DNA of 31,679 bases. Origin: Streptomyces sp. NRRL F-5122 (GTDB lineage: Bacteria > Actinomycetota > Actinomycetes > Streptomycetales > Streptomycetaceae). The stretch lies in NCBI RefSeq assembly GCF_001507435.1, contig NZ_LMWH01000272.1, positions 1-31,679 on the forward strand, read 5' to 3'. The number at the start of each line of letters is the position of its first letter. The stretch's first letter is position 1. The notes beneath the pieces are model-generated. The model was not told the origin of the DNA. It did not search any database and was given only the letters and a program-made list of their open reading frames with translations. Shown piece after piece: positions 3,773-24,255 of this stretch. The translations under genes and the position numbers were made by a program.

Positions 3773-6673
3773 TTACTGACGTGGGGATGGATCAGGTAGG
3801 GCGATGTCCTTCAGCCGGTCGTGGACCTGCGGGGCGTCCGGGTGGCCGATGTCCTCGAGGATGCCGAGCGCTTCGCGCCACGCGTGCGCGGCCTGTGTGT
3901 GGTGTTGGGCTGCTCGGTGGGTGTCGCCGATGTGCACCAAGGTGTCGGCCTCCAGGTAGCGGTCGCGGATCGCCCGGTACAGCTCCAGCGCGTGCTCGTA
4001 GCAGTCGAGGGCCCGTTCGTGGTTGTGGAGGTGGTGGTGGGCATAGCCGAGGCTGTCCCATGCAGCGGCCTCACCGTTGCGGTCGCCGCTCGCCTGGTGG
4101 TCCGACAGTGCCCGCGCACACTCATTCAGGGCGTCCTCGTACTTGCCCATCAGGATGTATGTCCATCCGACCTCGTTGGCAATGTTCGCCTCGCCGCTGC
4201 GTCGTCCGGCCGCGCGGTACAGCGCGCTCGCATGCTCGTAGTGTTCGAGAGCTTGCTCATGCTGCTTGCGCCGGTTGGCCAGGAAGGCGAAATAGCGGCG
4301 GGTCCGGCCCTGCCCGGCTCGGTCGCCGATCTCACTGAACAGCTCCAAGGCGCGCGCGAGGTGCGCGTCGGCTTCCCCCCACAGCTCGAGGCGGCCATTG
4401 ACGAAGCCGAGCGCACGGTGCACATGTGCCTGACCACGAATGTCGCCCAGGCGTTGAGCCGCTCCCACGGCCGCTGTCTGGGCGCCGATTTGTTCCTGCC
4501 AGCGGCCGTTGCGGTCCAGGTACAGCTCCAGTGTCGCGGCCAGCTGCCAGCCGTGCTCGCCGGTTCCACGCCGGGCGTCCTGCTCGATCGCGGCGAGCAG
4601 GACGGAGCGGTTGGTCTCCAGCCATTCGGCGGCGGCCGTTTGGTCGGCCAGGCGCGGCACGGTCACCCCGGGCATGTGAGGCCGCAGGTCGATTCGCTCC
4701 CGGCGGGGCGCGAGGACGCTGTCCGCAGCGTGCGCGCCATGCAGGTAGTGGTCCAGCATGCGGCGCCGTGCTGTGGCCAGCTCGTGTGCCGTCTCCTGCG
4801 CCCGGGCCAATTCGGCGCCGTAGGCGCGGAGCAGTTCGTGACACCCGTAACGCCCGGGAAGGGGTTCGGTGATCAGGTGGGCCCGAACCAGTTCCGCCAG
4901 TAGTGCCTTGGTTTGACCGGCGCGCTGTCCGGCCAGGCTGGCGACGGCCGCGAGGGAGCAGTCGGGGCCCGGGTGCAGTGCGAGCAGGCGGAACACCCGG
5001 GCGGACGCGGGGGTGAGAAGTTGATATGACCATGAGAAGGCGCTGCGTGCGTCCGCGGCAGGGGCCTCACCGGAAAACGCGTCGAGGCTGTCCTCGTTCT
5101 CGTGCAGTTCGGCCGCGATGGACGCGAGCGGAAAGGTCGGGTTCACCACAGCGCGAGCGCTGACGACGGCCAGTGCGAGAGGCAGGTGTCCGCACGCGGC
5201 GATGATCTTCGCGACCGCGTCGGGTTCGGCCGCGATCCGTTCGGCGCCGAGCCTGCTGGATAGGAACTCGCGGGCGTCCGCGTCGCTGAGCACGCCCAGC
5301 GTAAGCGGGTACGCGCCCTCGCCGGCGACCAGCCCGTACAGCTGGTTACGGCTGGTGACGACCACCAGGCAACCGGGGGCACCGGGCAGCAAGGGGCGGA
5401 CATGCTCGGTGTCGCGAGCGTTGTCGAGGACGATCAGCACTCGCCGGCCGGCGACCAGGCTGCGATACAGCGCCGCCTGTGCATCCAGCCCCGCCGGAAT
5501 GCGCTGCGCGGGAACGCCGAATGCATCGAGGAAGGACCGTATCGCCTCGGCCGGGCTCATGACCGAGCCAGTGGGATGGAAACCGCGCAGATTGACGTAG
5601 AGCTGCCCATCGGGGAAACGGTCGGCAACCATGTGCGCCCAGTGGACCGCCAGCGTCGTCTTACCCACGCCCGCCATGCCGCCGAGCACCACGGTGGACA
5701 CTGGCCCTTCATGTGCGGGCAGCAGCCTGTCGACGTGGGCGAGTTCATGGCGCCGACCGGTGAAGGCAGGCAGGGCCACGGGCAGTTGGGCAGGCTTGAC
5801 CACGACGACAGGATTCAGTTCCACCTCCGCCGCGTCGGCCACCCCTCCCCCACTCTCGTCCGGACCGGTGGACTTCGCGCTCGCGACCTGCTTCGCAGTG
5901 GTCATGTCGTAGGCGCGGCCAAGGACACGTTGGTGAGCGGCCTGCAGTTCAGGGCCCGGCTGCACCCCCAGTTCGTCAGCGAGTCGAGTACGCACAGAAC
6001 GATGAACGTCCAGGGCTTCGGCCTGATGCCCGGTGGCTGCGAGCATCAGAATCAGCCTGGCCTGCAGCGCCTCGTCCAACGGATGCTGCGCGGCGGCCTG
6101 CCGGAGCGTCACCAGCACTCGCGCACCCAGGCCCGGCCCGGCTTCCAGGGCCAGTTCGGCTGCTCCCTTGACGGCAGCGAGATGTTCGCCATCCAGGGCG
6201 GTGAAGGCCGGGTGGGATCTCACCTCGGGCGCGATCCCGGAGGCCGCGGGCCCGCGCCACAGGGCCAGAGCCTGGATCAAGTACTCGGTGGCAGCAGCCG
6301 GATCCCGGTTCTGTGCCGCATGCTCCGCCTGCTGCCGCAGGGCCCGGAAGCGAAGCAGGTCAAGCCCGGCAGGCTCTACTTCCAGCCGGTAGCCGCCCGA
6401 GCCGCGCACCAGCCACCGTGACTCGCCCCTCGCCGGGAGATCGGGTTCGAGCAGTCGGCGCAGTGCGCCGATGTGCCGCTGAACCACGTTGACAGCCGTG
6501 TCCGGCGGGTTCTGTCCCCACAGGGCGTCGACGATCTCGTGCACGGCAACCGGGTGCCCCGCCTCGGTCAGCAGCAACGCGAGGAGGGCACGTTGCTTGG
6601 GCGGTCCCAGCACCAGTTCCGTGTCGCCGCGCCAGGCTCTGACCGGGCCGAGCACGGCGAAACGTATACACAC
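3773..6673 (-). CDS. SARP family regulator with BTAD, NB-ARC and TPR domains (AfsR-like)
   Basis: A 966-aa transcriptional activator close in length and layout to AfsR. Residues 1-98 are an OmpR-type winged helix (FAVLGPVRAW, PPKQRALLALLL, LWGQNPPDTAVNVVQRHIGA). Residues about 105-250 are the bacterial transcriptional activator domain, ending in LGVQPGPELQAAHQRVL. An NB-ARC ATPase follows, with Walker A GGMAGVGKTT near residue 330 and Walker B RVLIVLDNA. The C-terminal 270 residues contain about five TPR repeats, each ending in a motif such as ALELF, ALELY or ALGIL. The start is GTG 6673 with only a weak purine-rich stretch upstream. SARPs bind direct repeats upstream of secondary-metabolite genes, and the ATPase and TPR parts gate this by ligand or partner. 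No biosynthetic genes adjoin it here; the nearest candidate is the Nit1 operon 9 kb away, with transposon debris in between. Confidence 0.95.
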   Translation of the reverse strand: MCIRFAVLGPVRAWRGDTELVLGPPKQRALLALLLTEAGHPVAVHEIVDALWGQNPPDTAVNVVQRHIGALRRLLEPDLPARGESRWLVRGSGGYRLEVEPAGLDLLRFRALRQQAEHAAQNRDPAAATEYLIQALALWRGPAASGIAPEVRSHPAFTALDGEHLAAVKGAAELALEAGPGLGARVLVTLRQAAAQHPLDEALQARLILMLAATGHQAEALDVHRSVRTRLADELGVQPGPELQAAHQRVLGRAYDMTTAKQVASAKSTGPDESGGGVADAAEVELNPVVVVKPAQLPVALPAFTGRRHELAHVDRLLPAHEGPVSTVVLGGMAGVGKTTLAVHWAHMVADRFPDGQLYVNLRGFHPTGSVMSPAEAIRSFLDAFGVPAQRIPAGLDAQAALYRSLVAGRRVLIVLDNARDTEHVRPLLPGAPGCLVVVTSRNQLYGLVAGEGAYPLTLGVLSDADAREFLSSRLGAERIAAEPDAVAKIIAACGHLPLALAVVSARAVVNPTFPLASIAAELHENEDSLDAFSGEAPAADARSAFSWSYQLLTPASARVFRLLALHPGPDCSLAAVASLAGQRAGQTKALLAELVRAHLITEPLPGRYGCHELLRAYGAELARAQETAHELATARRRMLDHYLHGAHAADSVLAPRRERIDLRPHMPGVTVPRLADQTAAAEWLETNRSVLLAAIEQDARRGTGEHGWQLAATLELYLDRNGRWQEQIGAQTAAVGAAQRLGDIRGQAHVHRALGFVNGRLELWGEADAHLARALELFSEIGDRAGQGRTRRYFAFLANRRKQHEQALEHYEHASALYRAAGRRSGEANIANEVGWTYILMGKYEDALNECARALSDHQASGDRNGEAAAWDSLGYAHHHLHNHERALDCYEHALELYRAIRDRYLEADTLVHIGDTHRAAQHHTQAAHAWREALGILEDIGHPDAPQVHDRLKDIALPDPSPRQ

Positions 6674-13612: not shown

Positions 13613-14867
13613 TCACGCCGCGGAGGTGTCCTCCGGACGTTCGACGAGGTGACCGTTCTCGAAGCGGGCGCCGTTGCGGACCAGGGCGACGAGGTGGGGT
13701 GCGGTGATCGCGCGCCAGCTTTCCTGGGCGGACTCGACGAGCTTGAAAACCATCGCCAAGGCGGCGGCTGGGCTGCCCGCGCCGCGGGTGACCTTGGTGC
13801 GGAGTTTCACCGTGGAGAAGGTCGACTCGATGGGGGATTCGTAGTGCGCAGATGGACCCAGTGCTGGGCGGGAAAATCGTAGAACGCCAGCAGCTCCTCG
13901 GCGTCATCGGTGATCTTCTTCACCGCCTTGCGCCATTTCGCCTCGTAGGTCCTCGCGAATTCCGCGATCGCCTTCTCGGCGTGCGCGCGGTCCTCGGCGT
14001 TGTAGATCTCCTGCATCGCCTTCTTCGCGCCGGGCTGCGCGGATTTCGGCAACGCGTTCGAGACGTTGCGGGCCTTGTGGACCCAACACCTCTGATGCCG
14101 GGCGGCGGGAAGCACCTCAGCCAGGGCCTTCCAGAGTCCCATCGCGCCGTCGCTGACGACCAGCTCGGGGTCTGTCATGCCGCGTCGGCGGCAGTCCCGC
14201 AGCAGGTCGGCCCACGACTCGGTCGACTCGCGTAGGCCCTCTGCGATCGCGATCAGCTCCTTGGTGCCGTCCACGCGCACGCCCATGAGGACCAGGACGC
14301 AGGAGTGGGCTTGTCCGAGGCGGACCTTGGGGTGCACGCCGTCGGCCCACACGTAGACGTAGTCGCTGCCGGTCAGAGTCCGGTCCTGGAGCACGGCGTG
14401 ATCGGCCTGCCACTGCTTCGTCAGCCGCATGACCGTCGCCGACGACAGCCCCGCAGTCGAGCCCAGGCACACAGCGCGGGCATGAAGTCCCCGCTGGACA
14501 GGCCGCGGAGGTAGAGCAGGGGCAGCACTTCGCTGACCTTCGGGGACTTGCGACACCACGGAGCCAGAATCCTGGAGGAGAACCTCTTGCGCTCCCCGGT
14601 GACCTCGTCGACCCGCTTGTCGTTCACGCGCGGCGCGTGGACCTCGACGGGACCTACGGCCGTGGTCACCGTCCGTTCGCGGTGGTGGCCGTTGCGGACC
14701 ACCAGGCGCCGGCCTCGTTCGTCACGCTGGTCGGCGAGCTCGGCTATGTACTGGTTGACCTCGGCCTCCAGCGCGGCGGCCAGCATCCGGCGGGCGCCCT
14801 CCCGGACGATGTCGTCGATCAGGGAGCCGGTCTCGGTCGTTCCATCCGCATTAACTACCCTGAGCAC
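13613..14867 (-). pseudogene. IS256-type (mutator) transposase with two frame breaks
   Basis: Reading starts at GTG 14867 (VLRVVNADGTTETGSLIDDI). The N-terminal part includes LEAEVNQYIAELADQRDERG, RNGHHRERTVTTAVGPVEVH and VLPLLYLRGLSSGDFMPAL. Near 14475 a deletion shifts the frame. The catalytic core follows, with YVYVWADGVHPKVRLGQAHS, DPELVVSDGAMGLWKALAEV and HQRCWVHKARNVSNALPKSA, which contain the two Asp residues of the DDE triad. Near 13845, in a run of five C after CTACGAAT on the minus strand, extra bases shift the frame again. The last part, TVKLRTKVTRGAGSPAAALA to VERPEDTSAA, ends at 13613. All parts of a full-length transposase are present but it cannot be translated as one protein. 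Confidence 0.9.
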
Positions 14868-15353: not shown

Positions 15354-16445
15354 TCATTGCGAGGTCAAGGTGCGGTAGAAGTCGCAGTGGTTGCGGGCCG
15401 CCGTTTCCCAGGTGTGGCGGGCTGCGAGGTCGCGTCCGGCAGTCCGTCGAGCCGGGTCGTCGTCTGTGAGGGCGCGGCCGAGTTCGACGGCCAGGTCCTG
15501 GGGTGTGGTGGCGAAGCGCGCGGTGGCGCCGAAGACCTCGCGCAGGACGGGCAGGTCTCGCACGACCAGGGGCACACCTGCGGCGAGGGCTTCCATCGCC
15601 GCCAGGCCGAAGCCTTCCTTTAGGGACGGGAAGGCGAAGGCATCGGCAGCCGCCACAAGCGACGGCAGGTCGCTCTCGGCCACCTCACCCAGGACGACCG
15701 GCTCGACACCGAGTTCAGCCGCCCGTGTCTCCCAGCGGACGCGGTAGTCGCGGTAGTCGAAAAGGGTCTCTCCGCCCGCGATCACCAGCCGTACGTCCGG
15801 GTGGGCGGAGCGCAGGTACACGTACGCCTCCAGCAGGTCCAATGAGCCCTTGCGCGGCTCGATGCCGCCGACCGTGAGGACGTAACGGCCCAGGCGGGAG
15901 CGCCAGTTCGCCCGGTCGGCCGAATCCGTGCTGGCGAAACGGTCGAAGGAAACTCCGTTGGGTATGACTGCCGCGTCGATGCCCCAGCCGTCTGCCAGCT
16001 CCGTAGCAACGGCCGCCGACACGCAGATGTGCGCGTACGGTTCGACAATGGCCAGCTCGTGGCAGGCGGCCAGTTCAGGGGTGGTGAAGTGGTCGAGGTG
16101 GTGGACCGTGCGGATGCAGCGGCCACCGACCGCATTGGCGCTGATGCAGTCCTGGGCGTGAACAATGTCGTACCTCGCCGTGAAGGGCTCGAAGGCTTCG
16201 CCGAGGACGGCGATGGAGCGCCGGATGCGTTCGCCGACCGTCTCGCCGTCGGGGCCGTCTGGGAAGGGGACGATCCGCAGTCGTACTGCGGGATCGACCG
16301 GGCGGAAGAAGCCGGAGTCGCCCCCTCGTCCCAGCGTCCACACCGTGACGTCCTGCCCGGTCGCGGCGAGCGCCTCGGCGAGGGCGAGCGTGTGGACGAC
16401 GCCGCCACGCGGCTTGGTGGAGTAGCTGAGCAGGGCGATCTTCAC
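15354..16445 (-). CDS. MSMEG_0565 family glycosyltransferase (GT4 type)
   Basis: The GTG start at 16445 overlaps the stop of the upstream nitrilase-like gene (GTGA), so translation is coupled. The 363-aa product is a GT-B fold retaining transferase. The N-terminal nucleotide-fold loop is MKIALLSYSTKPRGGVVHTL, the linker/donor domain begins at VLTVGGIEPRKGSLDLLEAY, and the donor-binding E-x7-E motif is visible in PSLKEGFGLAAMEALAAGVP. This is the glycosyltransferase regularly found in Nit1 / MSMEG_0565-0572 clusters, and it is the last gene of the operon here. It presumably transfers a sugar to the pathway product; donor and acceptor are unknown. Its 3' end abuts an IS5-type remnant, and I see no obvious terminator before it. 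Confidence 0.93.
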   Translation of the reverse strand: MKIALLSYSTKPRGGVVHTLALAEALAATGQDVTVWTLGRGGDSGFFRPVDPAVRLRIVPFPDGPDGETVGERIRRSIAVLGEAFEPFTARYDIVHAQDCISANAVGGRCIRTVHHLDHFTTPELAACHELAIVEPYAHICVSAAVATELADGWGIDAAVIPNGVSFDRFASTDSADRANWRSRLGRYVLTVGGIEPRKGSLDLLEAYVYLRSAHPDVRLVIAGGETLFDYRDYRVRWETRAAELGVEPVVLGEVAESDLPSLVAAADAFAFPSLKEGFGLAAMEALAAGVPLVVRDLPVLREVFGATARFATTPQDLAVELGRALTDDDPARRTAGRDLAARHTWETAARNHCDFYRTLTSQ

Positions 16446-17278
16446 GTGCGGGCATCCCGGTAGGTGTCGGGGCGGCGTTCGTCGAGGTGGCGCAGGAGTC
16501 GTCGGGCCCGCTCGATCTCCTCGACGACGTCCACCTCTGCAACCGCGAGGCCGGCCTTGGACCAGGTGCGGGCGAGGATGTCACCGCCCGGGCCGACGAC
16601 CTTGGACTGGCCGAGGAAGCGCATGCCGCCGAGGGCGCCGGTCTGGTTGGAGGAGGCGAGGACCACCTGGTTCTCCGCGGCACGGGCCTGGTCGTAGAGG
16701 TCGAAGAGCCTGGACTGGCGATCTTGAGCCATGCGCGGGGCGCGGTTGGTGATGGACGTGGGCCAGGCAGAGAGGCATGCGAGGATCTCGGCGCCGTCCA
16801 GTGCCAAAGAACGGGCCGACTCGGGAAAGGTCTTGTCGTAGTCAATGAGCATGCCGATCCGGCCGACCGGGGTGTCGAAGGCGGCAAAGCGGTCGCCCGG
16901 GGAGTAGGCGGCGACTTCTCCGGCCGGGAGGTGGACCTTGCGGTGGCGGCCGAGGACGCCGTCGCCGCTGACGCACACGGCGGCGTTGTAGCGCTCGTCG
17001 CCGGCGTCCTCGCAGTAGCCGAAGCAGACCACTATCTCAGCAGCCAGACGGGCGACTTGCAGGATCAGCGGGTCGTCGGGTTTGAGGGCCGGGGGCAGAG
17101 CCGCGGGGTCGGGGTGACGCAGGTCGGCCACGTAGCCGCCGAGCGCGGCGTCGGGCAGGACCAGCAGTGCGGCGCCCGAGGTGCGTGCGTCCTTGATGAG
17201 TTTGGCGATACGGGCCAGGTCGAACTCCAGGTCGCGGCCGAAGTGGGCCGCCGCGGCCGCGATCCGGACGGTGGTCAT
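16442..17278 (-). CDS. Nitrilase-superfamily paralogue lacking the catalytic cysteine (probable pseudoenzyme)
   Basis: The ATG at 17278 overlaps the stop of the first nitrilase (ATGA). The product is 278 aa and clearly a tandem duplicate of its neighbour: the N-termini MTTVRIAAAAA and MTTLRVAAVAA, GDGVLGRHRKVH, and FDTPVGRIGMLIDYDKTFPE are shared with few changes. Carbon-nitrogen hydrolases use Glu-Lys-Cys. Here Lys114 (HRKVH) and a second Glu (Glu121) remain, but the position of the nucleophile is Asp146 (LIDYDK against ICYDK in the partner), and the first Glu is Asp43 (LPDAALGGY against LPEACLGGY). The frame is complete, with normal codon bias and coupled start and stop, so it is not a decaying pseudogene. 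It may form a mixed spiral or dimer with the active copy, bind substrate, or catalyse something else. Confidence 0.9.
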   Translation of the reverse strand: MTTVRIAAAAAHFGRDLEFDLARIAKLIKDARTSGAALLVLPDAALGGYVADLRHPDPAALPPALKPDDPLILQVARLAAEIVVCFGYCEDAGDERYNAAVCVSGDGVLGRHRKVHLPAGEVAAYSPGDRFAAFDTPVGRIGMLIDYDKTFPESARSLALDGAEILACLSAWPTSITNRAPRMAQDRQSRLFDLYDQARAAENQVVLASSNQTGALGGMRFLGQSKVVGPGGDILARTWSKAGLAVAEVDVVEEIERARRLLRHLDERRPDTYRDART

Positions 17279-18129
17279 GCGCTGACTGCTCCTGGTGACA
17301 GGTCGTAGGTATCGGGTCGCCGGTCGCGCAGGTGGCCCATCGACCGGCGGGCGGTCTCCAGCGCCTGCACGACGTCGATCTCGGCGACGGCGATACCGGC
17401 CGCGATACCGGTGTCGGCGAGGATCTCGCCGCCGGGGTCGACGACCTTGGCGCTGCCGACAAAGCGTAGCGAGCCAAAGGTGCCGGCCTGGTTGGCGGAC
17501 AGCCACACGATCTGGTTCTCCAGGGCGCGGGCCCGGTCGAACAGGTCGAAGCGTCGTTTCCAGCGGTCCTGTGCGAGATCGGCGACCGCGTTGGTGCGGG
17601 AGCCGGGCCAGGCAGAGACACAGACGCCGATCTGAGCGCCGTCCAGGGCCAGGGCGCGAGCGGACTCCGGGAACGCCTTGTCGTAGCAGATCATCATGCC
17701 GATCCGGCCGACGGGCGTGTCGAAGGCGTGGAAGCGATCGCCGGAGGAGTAGGACGCGTCTTCGCTCAGCGGCTGGTGGACCTTGCGGTGGTTGCCGAGG
17801 ACGCCGTCGCCGGTGACGCAGACGACGCTGTTGTAGCGGCGGCCCTCGCCGTCGGCTTCGCAGTATCCGGCCACGACCGTCATCTCCCCGGCGAGGGCGG
17901 CCAGTCGGCCGATCTCCGGGCCGTCCACGGCGAGCGCGGGCGGGCCGTCGTCGAGTTCGGTGTCGTTGTCGAGGCTGAGGAGGTAGCCGCCCAGGCATGC
18001 CTCCGGCAGGGCGAGCAGCGTTGCGCCCGCCTCTCGGGCTTCCTTGATCAGCTGTTCGGCGATCAGGAAGTCCTCCTCCAGGTCGCGGCTGAACTCGGCG
18101 GCCACGGCGGCCACGCGCAGGGTGGTCAT
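17275..18129 (-). CDS. Nit1-type nitrilase / carbon-nitrogen hydrolase (Sll0784 type)
   Basis: The ATG at 18129 overlaps the stop of the MSMEG_0567-type gene (ATGA); the frame is open further upstream but only within that gene. The product is 284 aa. The catalytic triad is complete: Glu43 in LLALPEACLGGY, Lys116 in LGNHRKVHQP and Cys148 in GMMICYDKAFPES, with the second structural Glu at 123. Nitrilases hydrolyse nitriles or amides through a thioester on Cys. In Nit1 clusters this gene is the defining member; the cluster enzyme in Pseudomonas (nit1C) is needed for cyanide assimilation, and the cyanobacterial Sll0784 group is its relative. The physiological substrate here is unknown. It is immediately followed by an inactivated-looking duplicate. 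Confidence 0.94.
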   Translation of the reverse strand: MTTLRVAAVAAEFSRDLEEDFLIAEQLIKEAREAGATLLALPEACLGGYLLSLDNDTELDDGPPALAVDGPEIGRLAALAGEMTVVAGYCEADGEGRRYNSVVCVTGDGVLGNHRKVHQPLSEDASYSSGDRFHAFDTPVGRIGMMICYDKAFPESARALALDGAQIGVCVSAWPGSRTNAVADLAQDRWKRRFDLFDRARALENQIVWLSANQAGTFGSLRFVGSAKVVDPGGEILADTGIAAGIAVAEIDVVQALETARRSMGHLRDRRPDTYDLSPGAVSA

Positions 18130-19559
18130 GCTGTTCCCATCCCGGTCACCGTCGAGGTGACCGCTTCGGTGATCTCTCCGTCGGGCCAGCGCAGGCCCAC
18201 GCCTGCTCCGGTGGTCAGTTCGCCGCAGACCGCACTGGTGGCGGGCCCGGCGGGCAGCGGCAGGGCGGATGGACTGTCGGCGGTGAGCATCGCGAAACCG
18301 GGAAAGCAAGTGAGCCAGTCGCCCACGCTCGCGTTGCTCGGACGGGGTGTGGTGGCCACGTCGAGGATCGCCTGGCAGTTGCTCGCCTCAGCGAGCATGC
18401 CGAGCGTCCCGGCGATCCCGGCCATCGACACGTCCTTCGCGGCGGCGGGCCGGGCGGCCGCCACCGCGGCGGTCATGGTGCGCAGTTCGTCCGAACGGCG
18501 ATGGCTGGTCGAGTCCCATTGGCGCCCCCGGTAGCCCGAGCGCCATCCCCCGCCGAGGTCGGCGGTCAGCCGTATGGCATGGCCGGGGCGTCCGCCACCG
18601 CCTGGCACCGGCCGGTCGGTGCGGCCGAGTGCTGTCGCCGAGAGGGCGGCGGGGACGCCGAGCTGGGTGTGCCCGCCGAGCACTGGCAAGCCGTACGCCG
18701 TCGCTGCCCGTGCGAGTCCGGCCAGGACCCGGGCGGCGTGTGCCGCGTCGCGGGCGCCAACGGCGTTCAGCAGACCGAGCGGTGCGGCTCCCATCGCCGC
18801 GAGGTCGTTGACGTTGACGAGGACCGCGCACCATCCCGCCCAGTCGGGGTCCCGCTCGACCATGGAGGGCACGATCGCGTCGCACGCCGCGATCATGTCG
18901 GTGCCGGGGACGGGAGCCCCGTCGTCACCGACAAAGCCCGGAGGAGGGTTCAGTGCGGTCAGGAGCGGCCCCAGAGGGGACTTCGTGGCTGCCACGAGTG
19001 CGGCAATACGGCCGATCGGCCAGCGCATCAGGACGTGCGGCGCGCCCGCGACCGTTGTGTTGCGCACCCGCTGCCAGCCCAGGCGCTGGAACAGAACCTC
19101 GCTGCGGGTCTGGACGGTCGCGTCGAACCGCAGCACGCCCTGCGTCTCTGCCCAGGCGCAGGCGGCCCGCACCAGCGCCGCGCCGATGCCGCGCGCGCCG
19201 CGGGCCTGGCGGGCGACGACGAGCCGCCCGCCCTGCCACCAGCCGAGGTCGGGGCCGTCATCGACCGGGCCAAGGCGCACTCCGCCCACCACGACTCCGT
19301 GCGGGTCCTTCGCGACCATGACCACGGTCCGCGGATCGCTGTCGCGACCATCCAGGTCGTGGTGCGCGAAGAGCCGCTGTTCGCGGACGAACGCGTCGCG
19401 GCGCAGCCTCCGGTAGGCGGTCACGTCCGCCGAGCTGCCCGCCTCCTCGATCCGGTAAGCGGTCTGCTGCCGGGCGAGCGTGCTGCGGTCGCCGAGCAGG
19501 GCCAGAATGTCCGGTGTACTGCCCACGGCCGGCCCGACGACAAAGCCGTCGAGGTTCAC
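18126..19559 (-). CDS. MSMEG_0567/Sll0787 family protein: GNAT domain fused to AIR-synthase-like domain
   Basis: A 477-aa two-domain protein. Residues about 30-175 form a GNAT-like acetyltransferase domain (VVGGVRLGPV, GGRLVVARQARGARGIGAAL, VLFQRLGWQRV), with the acetyl-CoA loop R-x-x-G-I-G in ARGARGIGAAL. Residues about 190-477 resemble the AIR synthase/PurM fold (GDDGAPVPGTDMIAACDAIV, VLVNVNDLAAMGAAPLGLLN, VLGGHTQLGVPAALSATALG), an ATP-binding scaffold. This fusion is specific to Nit1-type clusters. GTG 19559 starts four bases after the radical SAM stop and the gene ends overlapping the nitrilase start. The reaction is unknown; an ATP-dependent ligation or cyclisation plus acyl transfer is inferred from the folds only. 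Confidence 0.92.
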   Translation of the reverse strand: MNLDGFVVGPAVGSTPDILALLGDRSTLARQQTAYRIEEAGSSADVTAYRRLRRDAFVREQRLFAHHDLDGRDSDPRTVVMVAKDPHGVVVGGVRLGPVDDGPDLGWWQGGRLVVARQARGARGIGAALVRAACAWAETQGVLRFDATVQTRSEVLFQRLGWQRVRNTTVAGAPHVLMRWPIGRIAALVAATKSPLGPLLTALNPPPGFVGDDGAPVPGTDMIAACDAIVPSMVERDPDWAGWCAVLVNVNDLAAMGAAPLGLLNAVGARDAAHAARVLAGLARAATAYGLPVLGGHTQLGVPAALSATALGRTDRPVPGGGGRPGHAIRLTADLGGGWRSGYRGRQWDSTSHRRSDELRTMTAAVAAARPAAAKDVSMAGIAGTLGMLAEASNCQAILDVATTPRPSNASVGDWLTCFPGFAMLTADSPSALPLPAGPATSAVCGELTTGAGVGLRWPDGEITEAVTSTVTGMGTA

Positions 19560-19563
19560 GGCG

Positions 19564-20655
19564 TCACCCGCCCGCTGCCGGGAGCACGCTGCACGCCCCG
19601 CAGGCGGCGCAACCGGCCTTCTGATCGGCGCCGCTCATGCCGGCCGCCCGGAGCTTGGCGGCAACACCCTCGGTGACGTACCGCAGCAGATCCGCGCTGG
19701 GCGCCGTGATCCCATCGCGGGCGGCGAGCGTACCGCTCATCGGTCGGAAGGGGACCACGAAGGGGTAGATCCCGCGGTCTATCAACTTCCCCGCGCCCTC
19801 AACGAGTTCGTCAGGGTCCTCGCCCAGGCCCACGAGGAGGTAGGTGGAGACCCGGTTGGGGCCGAACACGCGTACCGCCTCGTCCCACGCGGCGTCGTAC
19901 TCGGTGAGCGCAACGGTCGACTTGCCGGGCATCCATCGCCTTCGCACCGCGTCGTCGAGGGATTCGACATGAATGCCGATGGCGGTGGCGCCGGCGTCGT
20001 GCAGGGCGCGGATCCAGGACAGGTCGCCGGGCGGTTCGCACTGCACCTGGATGGGCAGGTTCGGCACCGCCCTGAGGACCGCGCGGACCGACCTTACGAG
20101 GTTACGGGCGCCTCGGTCGGGGCCGGTGGTGGTGCCCGTGGTCATGACCATCTGCTTGACGCCGTCGAGTCGCACGGCGGCCTCGGCGACCTCGGCGAGC
20201 TGCGCGGGGGTCTTGGCCGCGACCGTGGCGCCGACGCGCAGGGACTCCTCGATGGTGCAGAAGCGGCAGCGGTCGGACTCGCCGTAGCGGATACAGGTCT
20301 GTACGACGGTGGTGGCGAGGACGTCCGAGCCGTGCAGGCGGGCGATCTGCTCGTAGCGGATGCCGTCGGCGGTGGTCAGATCGTAGAACGCAGGCCGCTG
20401 GACGGTCGTCAGGGTGATCCCGGTGTCCTCGTCACCGAGCCAGACTTTGCCGTCGCGTACGGAGTAGGGACTGCCGTGGTTGCGAGGGAGCGCCGCGTTG
20501 GCACCGTCGACGAGGACATGGCCGTCGTCGCTGGGCCCCGCGCCGTCGGGCCTGCGCACAGGTGCGTCCAACGCGACGCCGTGCAGGGCCAGTTCGGTGC
20601 GGGTCGTGATCCGCACATCCACCGCCGTAGTGCTGTTGCCGGTGCCAACGCTCAC
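19564..20655 (-). CDS. MSMEG_0568 family radical SAM protein
   Basis: GTG 20655 has GTAGGAG at good spacing and lies nine bases after the previous stop. The product is 363 aa. The cluster-binding motif is Cys121-x8-Cys130-x2-Cys133 (CIRYGESDRCRFC), wider than the classic CxxxCxxC. A second Cys set, Cys349-x2-Cys352-x2-Cys355, ends the protein (CAACGAC) and probably binds an auxiliary iron-sulfur cluster. Strands such as MVMTTGTTTGPDRGARN and PIQVQCEPPGDLSWI fit a biotin-synthase/lipoyl-synthase-like TIM barrel. Radical SAM enzymes reductively cleave S-adenosylmethionine to start radical chemistry. Within the Nit1 operon it is the likeliest committed-step enzyme, but its substrate is not known. 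Confidence 0.94.
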   Translation of the reverse strand: MSVGTGNSTTAVDVRITTRTELALHGVALDAPVRRPDGAGPSDDGHVLVDGANAALPRNHGSPYSVRDGKVWLGDEDTGITLTTVQRPAFYDLTTADGIRYEQIARLHGSDVLATTVVQTCIRYGESDRCRFCTIEESLRVGATVAAKTPAQLAEVAEAAVRLDGVKQMVMTTGTTTGPDRGARNLVRSVRAVLRAVPNLPIQVQCEPPGDLSWIRALHDAGATAIGIHVESLDDAVRRRWMPGKSTVALTEYDAAWDEAVRVFGPNRVSTYLLVGLGEDPDELVEGAGKLIDRGIYPFVVPFRPMSGTLAARDGITAPSADLLRYVTEGVAAKLRAAGMSGADQKAGCAACGACSVLPAAGG

Positions 20656-20664
20656 GTAGTGCTC

Positions 20665-21186
20665 CTACAGCTGGTAGGTGGAGTTGATGATGGCGCCCTT
20701 GCGCGCGTAGTGGATCAGTGCGTCCTGGACATCCAGGGGGTGGGTGGGGATGACTCCCTCGATGAGGTCCTCCTCACGTGCACCGTGCAGGGACAGGCCG
20801 AAGCGGCAGCAGTAGACCTTGCCGCCCTCGGCGATGAACGTCTTGAGCTGGTTGTTGATGTTGTGCTCGCCGGGGAACGCGGAGTTGCCGACGGTCGGGA
20901 AGCCGCGCGTGGCCAGGCAGTTGAGGGAGCCGGGACCGTAGAAGTAGATGGCGGTCTCGAAGCCCTTACGCAGAGCGCGGGTCGCCTGGAGGACGGCGAC
21001 GAAGGACACGGAGGACTCGTGGGCGATGCCGTGGACGAGGGTGAAGTAGGTCTCGCCGTTCTCCGCCTCATAGTCGGGGAAGACCTTGGTGGAGCCGTAG
21101 ATGCTGCTGCCCTCGGGGAGCGAGGGGTGAGGGATCTCGCTGAGGGACTTCTGCTCGACATCACTGAGTTGAGCGGTTTCGGACAC
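20665..21186 (-). CDS. MSMEG_0572/Sll0783 family nitrogen-starvation response protein
   Basis: GTG 21186 is preceded by AAGGAG seven bases upstream. The product is 173 aa and soluble. Recognisable family segments are HPSLPEGSSIYGSTKVFPDY, YFTLVHGIAHESSVSFVAVL, ATRALRKGFETAIYFYGPGS and KVYCCRFGLSLHGAREEDLI, with an adjacent Cys pair in the last. The alternation suggests a DsrE-like alpha/beta fold. In Synechocystis the homologue Sll0783 is strongly induced on nitrogen starvation. No catalytic role is established. It sits fourth in the operon, between the amidohydrolase (39 bp away) and the radical SAM gene (9 bp away). Confidence 0.93.
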   Translation of the reverse strand: MSETAQLSDVEQKSLSEIPHPSLPEGSSIYGSTKVFPDYEAENGETYFTLVHGIAHESSVSFVAVLQATRALRKGFETAIYFYGPGSLNCLATRGFPTVGNSAFPGEHNINNQLKTFIAEGGKVYCCRFGLSLHGAREEDLIEGVIPTHPLDVQDALIHYARKGAIINSTYQL

Positions 21187-21225: not shown

Positions 21226-22041
21226 TCAGTCGTAGAGCGCAGCGAAGGTGTCCCGGAAGACCAGGTGGCCGAGTTCACCGCCGCCGGTGGCTTCGGCGAG
21301 GCGGGCGTATTCGCCGGTGAAGTCTCCCCATGGCTGGTCGCTGGCGAAGAGCACCCGGTCGTGGCCGATGCCGCGGCGCTCGATCTCCTGGGCTAGCCAG
21401 CGGGACGTGAACCCGATGGCCCAGGAGAGGTCGGTGTAGACGCGCTTGCCTAGGCTTATCCAGTCGAAGAACCGGGAGCCGGCGAGCTTGATGTGTCCGC
21501 TCATCCCGCCGCCGAAGTGCACGAGATGAACCGGTACCTGGTCGGCGTACCAGTCGACGAGGTGGCCCACCTCGTCGATGTCGGAAGCGGCGCCGGGAGA
21601 GGTGTGAACGTGCACGACGAGGTTGTGGCGGGCGGCCGTGGCGAAGATGCGGTCCAGCTGTGGGCGGCAGGCGGGGTCTGTGGGGCGACCGCCCAGCAGG
21701 AAGCTCAGCTTGAGGGCCTTGACTCCGCTTTCCCCGGCCAGTGCGAGAGCCTGCGCAGTGCGCGGGGCGTCCTCCGGACGGGGAGACACCCACAGACCGG
21801 CACGGATCCGGTCGTCGCTCTGCGCGGCCTGGATCACCAACTCGTTGAAGGAGAAGGCGATCGCGGGATCAGGGACGCCGTAGTTGGGGATGACCAGGGC
21901 GCGTTCGGTGCCCTCCGCGTCCAGGTCGGCGATCAGTTGCTTGACCGTGGCTCGGGCGGTGGTGTCGGGGTTGACGGGCGGCCCACCGTAAAAGGGATAC
22001 GCGGGTAGGGCGCCGATGTGGCGGTGTGCGTCATAGACCAT
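21226..22041 (-). CDS. Amidohydrolase-2 family metal-dependent hydrolase (Nit1 cluster member)
   Basis: The ATG at 22041 has GAGGAG seven bases upstream, and the gene starts 12 bp after the flavoprotein stop. The product is 271 aa. The metal-binding His-x-His of the amidohydrolase superfamily is at residues 6-8 (YDAHRHIG). A further His ligand lies in NLVVHVHTSPGA, another candidate in VHLVHFGGG, and the C-terminal catalytic Asp in VLFASDQPWGDF. This is a TIM-barrel hydrolase or decarboxylase of the ACMSD/aminocarboxymuconate type. A member of this family is usual in MSMEG_0565-0572 clusters. It may remove a carboxyl or hydrolyse a C-N bond in the pathway intermediate; that is inference. Confidence 0.92.
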   Translation of the reverse strand: MVYDAHRHIGALPAYPFYGGPPVNPDTTARATVKQLIADLDAEGTERALVIPNYGVPDPAIAFSFNELVIQAAQSDDRIRAGLWVSPRPEDAPRTAQALALAGESGVKALKLSFLLGGRPTDPACRPQLDRIFATAARHNLVVHVHTSPGAASDIDEVGHLVDWYADQVPVHLVHFGGGMSGHIKLAGSRFFDWISLGKRVYTDLSWAIGFTSRWLAQEIERRGIGHDRVLFASDQPWGDFTGEYARLAEATGGGELGHLVFRDTFAALYD

Positions 22042-22053
22042 GCTTGTGTCTCC

Positions 22054-23379
22054 TCAGCCGATCGGGAAAGCGGAGACGAGCCCGGTCGGCGCACCCGTGA
22101 GGGCGCCGCACACATCTGCCAGCCGGCGAGAGGCGTCGATGTGGTCGGCGAGGAACTCGGCGTCCCGGCCCACTGCCTCGAATCGCCCCGAGCCCCACGA
22201 GTACTGCCAGGGCAGGCCCAGGAAGTGCAGACCCGGCGTGCTGGTAGCTCCGCGCCAGTGCATCGGGTAGCCACGGCCGTCGAAGACGGGTGCCTCGATC
22301 CATCGGTGGTCGCGGCGAAAGCCGGTTGCCCAGACGACAGAGGTGATGCCTGCGCTCCCCAGGTCCAGTTCGCGCTGCTGCTCGGCCGGCTCCCACACAG
22401 GGACGTAGCGGGGCTCGACGGGGGCATCGATCCCGTGCGCGGCGATATGCATGTCGATGGCGTCCTTGATGCCCTCGGCGACGGCATCGGCATGCTCGAG
22501 GTTCGCCCCGAGGTCGTCAGCGAACTCCAGTCCCCCTGCGCCGCTGATCCCGGCCAGCCGCCCGTACAGGCGCATGCCCTCGCGGGCGAAGGCACGCAGG
22601 TCGATGTCACGGCCACCGTCACGTCCGGTGACGTAGTGGTTGACCCGCATGCGCACGGCCTCGGCGTCGTCGAAGTCGTCGATGGACTTGGCGTAGTGGC
22701 CCATGTCGTGAAGCCACGCCACGCAGTCACGGCCGCGGTAGAAGCGGGCCACGCGGGGGGCGCTTCCGACGGCCAGGTGCACTCGGCGCCCGGCGAGATG
22801 AAGGTCCTCGGCGATCTGACAGCCGGACTGACCGGTGCCGACCACGAGGACGGCGCCGTCGGGAAGTTGGTCCGCGCTGCGGTAACGGGAGGAGTGGACC
22901 TGGGTGATGCCGTCGGGCAGTCGCTGGGCCATCAGGGGAATGGACGGCGTGTGGTACGGCCCGGTGGCGACGACCACTTGCTCTGCGGTGAAGTCTCCGG
23001 CAGTGGTGGAAAGGTCGAACACGCCGCTTGGAGAGCGCCGCAGCCGGGTGACCGTCACATCCTCCACCAGCGGCGGCCGGAAGAGAGTGGCATAGTCCTC
23101 CAGGTACCGGACGATCTCGTCGCGGACCATGAACCCGTCCGGGTCGTCGCCCTGATAGGGGTACCCGGGCAGTCTGCACTGCCAGTTGGGTGTCACCAGG
23201 CAGAAGGAGTCCCAGCGCCGCTCGCGCCACTCGTGCCCGACCCGGTTCGCCTCGACGACTACGTGCTCGACACCGCGCTCACGCAGGCAGTAGCTCATCG
23301 AGAGCCCCGCCTGACCGCCGCCGACCACCGCCACGGGATAGTGGGCGCCGGTCAGCCGTATCGCCTGAGTCGGGCTCAC
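22054..23379 (-). CDS. MSMEG_0569 family flavin-dependent oxidoreductase
   Basis: GTG 23379 overlaps the stop of the preceding small gene (GTGA). The product is 441 aa. Two dinucleotide-binding Rossmann motifs are clear: GGGQAG at residues 20-25 (FAD) and GTGQSG in GAVLVVGTGQSGCQIAEDLH (NADPH). The ATG motif VVWATGFRRD lies near the C-terminus, and FYRGRDCVAWLHDMGHYAKS is between. The layout is that of class B flavoprotein monooxygenases and related N-hydroxylating or Baeyer-Villiger enzymes. In Nit1 clusters it is constant; it probably oxygenates or oxidises an amine or side chain of the pathway intermediate. The substrate is unknown. Confidence 0.94.
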   Translation of the reverse strand: MSPTQAIRLTGAHYPVAVVGGGQAGLSMSYCLRERGVEHVVVEANRVGHEWRERRWDSFCLVTPNWQCRLPGYPYQGDDPDGFMVRDEIVRYLEDYATLFRPPLVEDVTVTRLRRSPSGVFDLSTTAGDFTAEQVVVATGPYHTPSIPLMAQRLPDGITQVHSSRYRSADQLPDGAVLVVGTGQSGCQIAEDLHLAGRRVHLAVGSAPRVARFYRGRDCVAWLHDMGHYAKSIDDFDDAEAVRMRVNHYVTGRDGGRDIDLRAFAREGMRLYGRLAGISGAGGLEFADDLGANLEHADAVAEGIKDAIDMHIAAHGIDAPVEPRYVPVWEPAEQQRELDLGSAGITSVVWATGFRRDHRWIEAPVFDGRGYPMHWRGATSTPGLHFLGLPWQYSWGSGRFEAVGRDAEFLADHIDASRRLADVCGALTGAPTGLVSAFPIG

Positions 23380-23681
23380 CGCGTGCTCCCGTCAGCGCCG
23401 GTCAGGGCCTCAACCGTGACCTTGGCATCGCCTTCGGCCGCGTAGGCGGCAGCGGTCTGCTCGATCTGTTCGATCTGCTCAGATGCACCGGTGCAGTAGA
23501 AGCCGAACTTCTCCCTCACCCGTTCACCGGCGATACCGAGTGCCGTACGGCTGCGCTCGACGAAATCCGCGAGAGGGTACTGACCGCCGGGAACGAAATA
23601 GTCCTCGACTACAGTAGAGGGGGAATAACAGCGCTGCGTCGCACCGTCGGGCCAGCGCACATGAAAATACATCTCGGGCAT
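23376..23681 (-). CDS. MSMEG_0570 family nitrogen-starvation response protein
   Basis: The first gene of the Nit1-type operon. The ATG at 23681 has GGAGG five bases upstream; an in-frame ATG at 23693 would add four residues but overlaps that site. The product is 101 aa, starting MPEMYFHVRWPDGATQRCYS, followed by VERSRTALGIAGERVREKFG. These are the diagnostic stretches of the MSMEG_0570 family, and a conserved Cys is followed by SPSTVV. The C-terminal tail (after EQIEQIEQTAAAYA) is variable. No catalytic role is established; the small size suggests a carrier, chaperone or regulatory subunit. Upstream 190 bp form the presumed promoter region of the whole operon. Confidence 0.92.
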   Translation of the reverse strand: MPEMYFHVRWPDGATQRCYSPSTVVEDYFVPGGQYPLADFVERSRTALGIAGERVREKFGFYCTGASEQIEQIEQTAAAYAAEGDAKVTVEALTGADGSTR

Positions 23682-24255
23682 GACATCCTCCATGCCGGGC
23701 GGTGAGGTCTCGACACTTCGCCGCTGTCCGTTGAGTCCAACTCCAACGCCCTGAGATTTCCGAGCGAAGTCGTCCGGATAAAAGAGGAGTTGCTGAATCC
23801 TCACGCCTGGACCGGCGCAGATTGACACGTTCTCGTTCTGGTTGGCCTCGAGCGGAAACAACCCCCTCCCCGCAAGGGGATGACTCAGTGAGGCGGATCA
23901 GCCTGGTCGGCGTGTCCGGTTCGGGAACTGAGCTGTCGGTCCGATACGGGGACGTCGCCGTGCGCCGTGGCGGAGGAATAACGGAACCTAGGTCAACCGC
24001 CGCTGTCGCCGGAGGAACGGCGCCTCCGTTGTCCGGGCCACAGGCCGTTGACGGACCGGACGGTGCGCGATCCTTTATGTACGGCGCACCGGCGTCCAGC
24101 GGGAAGGCAGACAGGACCCGGGCTTCAGTCCGGGCGGGACCCACCGCCGCAGGTTCCGGGGCAGGAACAAGCCGGCACCCCGCCTCCGCAGCGTGCACGA
24201 CGACACGGCCCTCCCCAGGAGGTGCTGGGGCGCCCAACGATGAGCCCGAGCCGCA
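23682..24255. other. Leader and promoter region of the Nit1-type operon plus gene-free DNA
   Basis: About 570 bp without a convincing gene. The part next to 23681 should contain the operon promoter; on the minus strand a TTTTAT segment lies near 23783, but no confident -35/-10 pair and no clear GlnR-type site are seen. Small hairpins are present, for example CGGAGG and CCTCCG at about 24009-24027, and CCCGGG with CCGGG near 24118-24134. Long open frames here have random composition. Confidence 0.45.

Follow-up and report, generated by a model that had tools for sequence, protein, structure and literature searches.

An Asp-fixed, Cys-less nitrilase paralogue in Nit1C/gpr-type gene clusters of actinobacteria

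The nitrilase pair and its history

The window analysed here is a stretch of 31,679 nt from Streptomyces sp. NRRL F-5122 (contig NZ_LMWH01000272.1), and coordinates are positions in this window unless a locus of another genome is named. It holds a run of nine genes on the minus strand, from 23681 to 15354, in which two nitrilase-fold genes follow each other. One of them, called NITa here, contains the catalytic Cys of nitrilases; in the other, called NITb, an Asp is found in its place. The original prediction had described two adjacent and overlapping genes of this type, and its coordinates, residues, codons and intact reading frame were all found again; the strand, which it left out, is minus for NITb. 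The two proteins are 60% identical and form a close pair in their own genome, where NITb has four further matches at 32-33% identity. The codons of NITb are GAC (D43), AAG (K114), GAA (E121) and GAC (D146, at 16841-16843), those of NITa GAG (E43), AAG (K116), GAA (E123) and TGC (C148, at 17686-17688).

Glu, Lys and Cys each have their role in the nitrilase triad, and position 43 is that of the superfamily base. Both copies exceed the cut-off of PF00795 (23.2 bits) and so belong to the superfamily by fold. With D43, K114 and D146, NITb lacks the Glu-Lys-Cys triad named for the superfamily in the available passages of PMC1199592, and it is a pseudoenzyme in the sense of a conserved homologue which has lost catalytic residues. 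No NCBIfam family matches either copy above its cut-off: the Nit6803 type (TIGR04048, cut-off 502.6) gives 22.7 bits for NITb and 32.6 bits for NITa, and N-carbamoylputrescine amidase (TIGR03381, cut-off 410.25) gives 114.9 bits for NITb. The locus, earlier designated a Nit1 operon, is of the Nit1C/gpr type by its neighbours, but its two nitrilases do not belong to the Nit6803 type of classical Nit1C.

The Asp is widespread, far more so than chance would give. The nearest relatives of NITb (the best 120 of 5176 and the best 120 of 3979 matches) gave 120 listed proteins and 117 new ones. Asp146 and Lys114 are present in all 237 of them. At position 121, 200 carry Glu and 37 carry Asp; at position 43, 232 have Asp, three His, one Asn and one Glu. 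To a tree set each genus contributed one NITa and one NITb from loci close to the window, rows shorter than 250 aa being excluded; in its 122 rows Asp146 is found in 51 of 51 NITb sequences versus Cys in 67 of 67 NITa sequences, and position 43 of NITb is Asp (43), Gly (7) or Gln (1). As judged from these alignments, NITb is a copy in which Asp146, Lys114 and Glu/Asp121 have been frozen while the former general-base site 43 has been freed.

The frame of NITb is intact, and the step from TGC to GAC takes two base changes. In 76 loci the codon at this site is GAC (75) or GAT (1) in NITb and TGC (69) or TGT (7) in NITa. Two base changes together with an Asp codon in every one of these loci mean that the Asp is not a sequencing error, as had been argued before from the base changes. 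The ratio of nonsynonymous to synonymous substitution rates (dN/dS) was calculated for 76 of 81 loci having one NITa and one NITb each, both of 255-310 aa and with the residues EKEC and DKED; locus L041, with H43, was left out. In the 2786 of 2850 pairs with dS between 0.15 and 1.2 in both genes, the median dN/dS is 0.194 for NITb versus 0.232 for NITa, and NITb is the lower in 2091 of the 2786 pairs, which are not independent of each other. The mean identity over 49 common loci is 0.70 for NITb versus 0.65 for NITa; of the two copies NITb is the slower to evolve. The 237 relatives, the codons and the dN/dS values rule out a sequencing error, a pseudogene or a change in one strain. The original prediction had expected a conserved clade under purifying selection and would have been overturned by a single strain under relaxed selection; what is found is one clade spread over many actinobacterial families, with a dN/dS of about 0.19, below that of NITa.

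In a class-level sample of 394 genomes 49 had a member of the family at E<=1e-60, and the loci of these were then read. NITa occurs in 48, NITb in 33 and both in 32 of them. Sixteen of the 49 have NITa and no NITb, each with a single match at E<=1e-30, of the Cys form. The sole genome with NITb and no NITa (G028, locus L121) has another nitrilase-fold match, which is 36% identical, and no match to TIGR04044; cluster genes were looked for in a stretch of 17 kb around its NITb and none were found. This NITb retains 99 of the 109 columns conserved in NITb. In a phylum-wide draw the family turned up at E<=1e-45 in nine of 396 genomes, and four of these nine had been seen before. Six members from families f82 and f61 were read and are all Cys forms. 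Genome G733 (family f114) carries both copies, and its NITb (locus L179, 7863-8657), which has D146 and D121, forms a deep branch; Asp121 is thus shared with the 37 relatives counted above.

A careful tree was built from 61 of the 122 rows, with the Cys-type relatives of f82 and f61 as outgroup. NITb forms one clade (support 100/94) and the Cys copies form another (99/82). With two such clades and a Cys-type outgroup the exchange of Cys for Asp is most simply explained as having happened once, after the duplication. NITa from the NITb-less groups g47 and g64 of family f18 falls inside the NITa clade (96/91), by which NITb would have been lost there. It should be noted that a later duplication was not rejected in the approximately unbiased (AU) test (p 0.67) and that the constrained tree outscored the free quick tree.

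Two ideas about this loss were tried and rejected. One placed it in mycobacteria: the PE family, which we take to be typical of mycobacteria, was found in all five genomes of family f4, whose NITb proteins all have D146, and in neither of two f18 genomes; the control also matched E. coli, so this is not proof. The other was that NITb and the TIGR04046 flavoprotein are always lost together; genomes G038, G230, G485 and G505 retain TIGR04046 beside a NITa without NITb. TIGR04046 is missing from the NITb-less f18 clusters L131 and L126, and none was found above the cut-off in 14 genomes of g47 and g64, five of which have weaker matches (303-364 bits) elsewhere. In these two clusters an unrelated flavin adenine dinucleotide (FAD) protein of about 545 aa lies between NITa and the glycosyltransferase (L131 9367-11131, L126 6470-8182); a profile search with the L131 copy gave Trp_halogenase/FAD-like families.

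Neighbouring genes, gene order and fusions

Profile searches with NCBIfam and Pfam assign the nine genes to families of the Nit1C/gpr cluster (Table 1), and the radical SAM, GNAT, AIRS, flavin oxidoreductase, TIGR04044 and nitrilase-fold genes which characterize such a cluster stand together here. The start of the TIGR04042 gene was set from the profile match; the mechanical open reading frame begins at 23861. Overlaps of 4 bases, in which each start lies within the stop of the preceding gene, join the GNAT-AIRS gene to NITa, NITa to NITb and NITb to the glycosyltransferase gene. The transposase downstream of the latter is probably a frameshifted insertion-sequence relic, and a large regulator gene lies further away in the window. 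A search for a GlnR-like box upstream of the operon gave nine loose matches; simple shuffles gave 4.2 on average, and the difference is not convincing.

Table 1. Genes and other features of the window (AF2, AlphaFold2 model; pLDDT, predicted local distance difference test)
Feature	Position	Strand	Match
NITb, nitrilase-fold, 278 aa, D43/K114/E121/D146	16442..17278	-	PF00795 126.8 bits; AF2 pLDDT 89.2
NITa, Cys-containing paralogue, 284 aa, E43/K116/E123/C148	17275..18129	-	PF00795 149.6 bits
MSMEG_0565-family glycosyltransferase	15354..16445	-	TIGR04047 459.5 bits (cut-off 259.85)
GNAT + AIR-synthase-like fusion	18126..19559	-	TIGR04045 99.8 bits (cut-off 68.45); TIGR04050 476 bits (cut-off 312.2)
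MSMEG_0568-family radical SAM protein	19564..20655	-	TIGR04043 491.8 bits (cut-off 303.7)
MSMEG_0572/Sll0783-family protein	20665..21186	-	TIGR04044 252.8 bits (cut-off 109.85)
Amidohydro_2 protein	21226..22041	-	PF04909 60.8 bits (cut-off 26.4)
MSMEG_0569-family flavin-dependent oxidoreductase	22054..23379	-	TIGR04046 647.2 bits (cut-off 498.35)
MSMEG_0570-family protein	23376..23681	-	TIGR04042 132.4 bits (cut-off 79.85)
Mutator-family transposase, two overlapping frames	13807-14867	-	PF00872
Large regulator with BTAD, NB-ARC and TPR domains	3773-6673	-	

Among the class genomes that carry NITb, 31 of 33 have the glycosyltransferase gene directly after it; the exceptions are L155 and the orphan at L121. 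NITa stands directly before NITb in ten of the 32 genomes with both and apart from it in the other 22. When the 80 loci nearest to the window are added, which biases the set towards the arrangement of the window, the glycosyltransferase gene follows NITb in 111 of 113 and NITa is adjacent in 89 of 113. Four of the five f4 loci have the order TIGR04044, NITa, (TIGR04042,) flavoprotein, radical SAM, GNAT/AIRS, NITb, glycosyltransferase, with TIGR04042 undetected in two.

Fusions were sought in the best 120 of 277 hits, which included 119 new proteins (91 Cys forms and 28 Asp146 forms). No fusion of NITb was found among them, and none of NITa with NITb. NITa is fused to an MSMEG_0569-type flavin oxidoreductase in the database proteins P0290, P0309 and P0312, a hint that NITa and the flavoprotein work together. 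In P0315, which may result from an artefact of the frame, a piece of radical SAM protein is joined to NITa.

A possible function for NITb

The reading we favour, and hold with moderate confidence, is that NITb is an ancient neofunctionalised protein of the nitrilase fold, without the Cys, in which a rebuilt pocket is still in use; it builds on the sequence, the clade, the constraint, the gene order and the fold prediction. The gene would have been duplicated in an ancestor of these actinobacterial clusters. NITa would then have kept the Glu-Lys-Cys site, and in the other copy the Cys would have become Asp and the Glu site would have been freed, after which the pocket would have been fixed around Asp146, Lys114 and Glu/Asp121. 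By the known mechanism of the superfamily NITb should not be capable of forming the thioester intermediate. The loss of the Cys and the freedom of site 43 speak against the usual nitrilase chemistry, which should have gone from a protein where this site is D, G, Q, H, N and in one case E. The pocket would most likely bind a charged intermediate of the Nit1C/gpr pathway that contains nitrogen and is not the substrate of NITa; NITb would perhaps process this ligand without a covalent thiol step, and may act near the step of the glycosyltransferase. That NITb has its own function is indicated by NITa lying apart in most genomes with both, by the orphan, by the flavoprotein fusions which involve NITa and not NITb, and by the fixed place before the glycosyltransferase gene. 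Several observations weigh against this reading. Of the 33 class genomes that have NITb, 32 also have NITa, as would be expected for a heteromer as well. It stands alone in one genome only, G028, where it may be a relic, and in three of the four other genomes of that family nothing matched at E<=1e-60. Finally, the glycosyltransferase gene was not found at the NITb cluster L155, yet it is present in clusters without NITb, so NITb and the glycosyltransferase are linked by position only.

The same companionship of the two copies is what would be seen if NITb were a subunit that pairs with NITa, as a heterodimer or in a mixed spiral, so that the active site of NITa is completed or tuned by it. 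The genes overlap in the window and are direct neighbours at 89 of the 113 loci. At seven positions each copy has a fixed residue of its own, and three of these (b188 Q/W, b191 L/R, b201 A/L) fall within helix 187-203, presumably a part of the superfamily dimer surface; the chance of such clustering is about 0.006, in a test picked after the positions had been seen. One of the three is less strictly kept where NITb is absent: W190 of NITa is present in 48 of 49 sequences which occur with NITb versus 12 of 18 without it, and six more NITa columns are at least 95% conserved with NITb and less than 60% without. However, R193 is retained in 18 of 18 and L203 in 16 of 18 NITb-less NITa rows, 16 of the 49 genomes manage with NITa and no NITb, and the two genes are not neighbours in 22 of 32. 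The fusions found join NITa three times to the flavoprotein and never to NITb, and the invariant Asp-Lys-carboxylate pocket, for which a pure scaffold has no need, speaks against a mere scaffold. We therefore consider an obligate partner of NITa less likely than a pocket protein with its own function. Of the three roles first proposed (pseudoenzyme subunit, substrate binder, repurposed catalyst) it is the subunit that has been weakened, by adjacency in ten of 32 genomes, NITb alone in one and NITa alone in 16 of 49.

That pocket, which has Asp146, Lys114 and a carboxylate at 121 in all 237 nearest listed relatives and is under strong purifying selection, could also be an active site with Asp146 as nucleophile or general base, by way of an acyl-Asp or of water-activated hydration or hydrolysis, assisted by Lys114 and Glu121. 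The superfamily base position is however G, Q, H or N in some NITb proteins, no title listed names an Asp-nucleophile enzyme of the nitrilase fold, and the open-access literature searched gave none; we find such an enzyme doubtful. It is equally tentative that NITb, as a thiol-free enzyme with its invariant Asp-Lys-carboxylate site, might carry out a distinct Nit1C/gpr step, in which it would perhaps make the acceptor ready for the neighbouring glycosyltransferase or keep it in place. A sensor or regulator that reads a pathway metabolite with the old pocket seems very improbable. Its pocket is conserved without the nitrilase residues, and the available passages of PMC6039565 and PMC4222082 describe strong nitrogen regulation of the M. 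smegmatis cluster; no signalling domain was found fused to NITb in the Pfam matches of the best 120 rows per search, where length limits would hide large fusions.

A neofunctionalised pocket protein, the reading we prefer, would suggest that many actinobacteria have converted a classic enzyme pocket to a new use beside a normal nitrilase in the same cluster. The nitrilase superfamily is regarded as Cys-dependent, and this widespread clade, with its fixed Asp and a constraint tighter than that on the Cys-containing copy, provides a natural example of active-site rebuilding. The nitrilase fold and the gene cluster are already known; the Asp-fixed, Cys-less clade is covered by no NCBIfam model above its cut-off, and it was not found in the open-access literature searched.

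Comparison with known systems

Two nitrilase-fold proteins of known structure may be compared with NITb. The PH0642 amidase of Pyrococcus horikoshii (1j31, 6ypa) has its natural Cys at the site and lacks it only in the engineered C146A form. The N-carbamoylputrescine amidases (TIGR03381; MtCPA, 5h8i-l) differ in that NITb scores far under their cut-off and has no catalytic Cys or Glu.

The Nit1C cluster, as far as described in the available parts of Podar et al. (2005, PMC1199592) and for Pseudomonas nitBCDEFGH (PMC11049912), shares with the window the radical SAM, GNAT, AIRS, flavin oxidoreductase and TIGR04044/04042 genes. Its classical nitrilase is of the Nit6803 type, whereas the window has two copies which are not, one of them without the Cys. 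The window cluster also adds an Amidohydro_2 gene and a glycosyltransferase gene; the latter is mentioned for Burkholderia and Rubrivivax as well (PMC1199592, same passages). NITb would offer a precise handle on the role of Nit1C-type clusters outside cyanide assimilation.

The closest comparison is with the gpr cluster of M. smegmatis, MSMEG_0565-0572. According to the available passages of PMC6039565 the cluster as a whole is induced in a GlnR-dependent manner and confers peroxide resistance, and the authors could not identify the single genes responsible. They also proposed that a selenoprotein arises when MSMEG_0571 is read through as far as 0569; NITa, TIGR04042 and the flavoprotein each have a gene of their own in the loci studied here, and read-through is thus not needed to link nitrilase and flavoprotein. 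The parts of PMC4222082 available list msmeg_0571 as "Hydrolase, carbon-nitrogen family" (48.04), msmeg_0566 as "Aliphatic amidase" (8.94) and msmeg_0565 as "Putative glycosyl transferases group 1". As in four of the five f4 loci, 0566 adjoins the glycosyltransferase gene 0565 and 0571 lies far up the cluster, and by this gene order MSMEG_0566 is probably NITb. It differs by its annotation as an amidase, and the passages do not give its catalytic residues; D146 is our prediction for it. The annotation of genes now called amidases or nitrilases would have to be revised for this clade, probably including MSMEG_0566 of the peroxide-resistance cluster.
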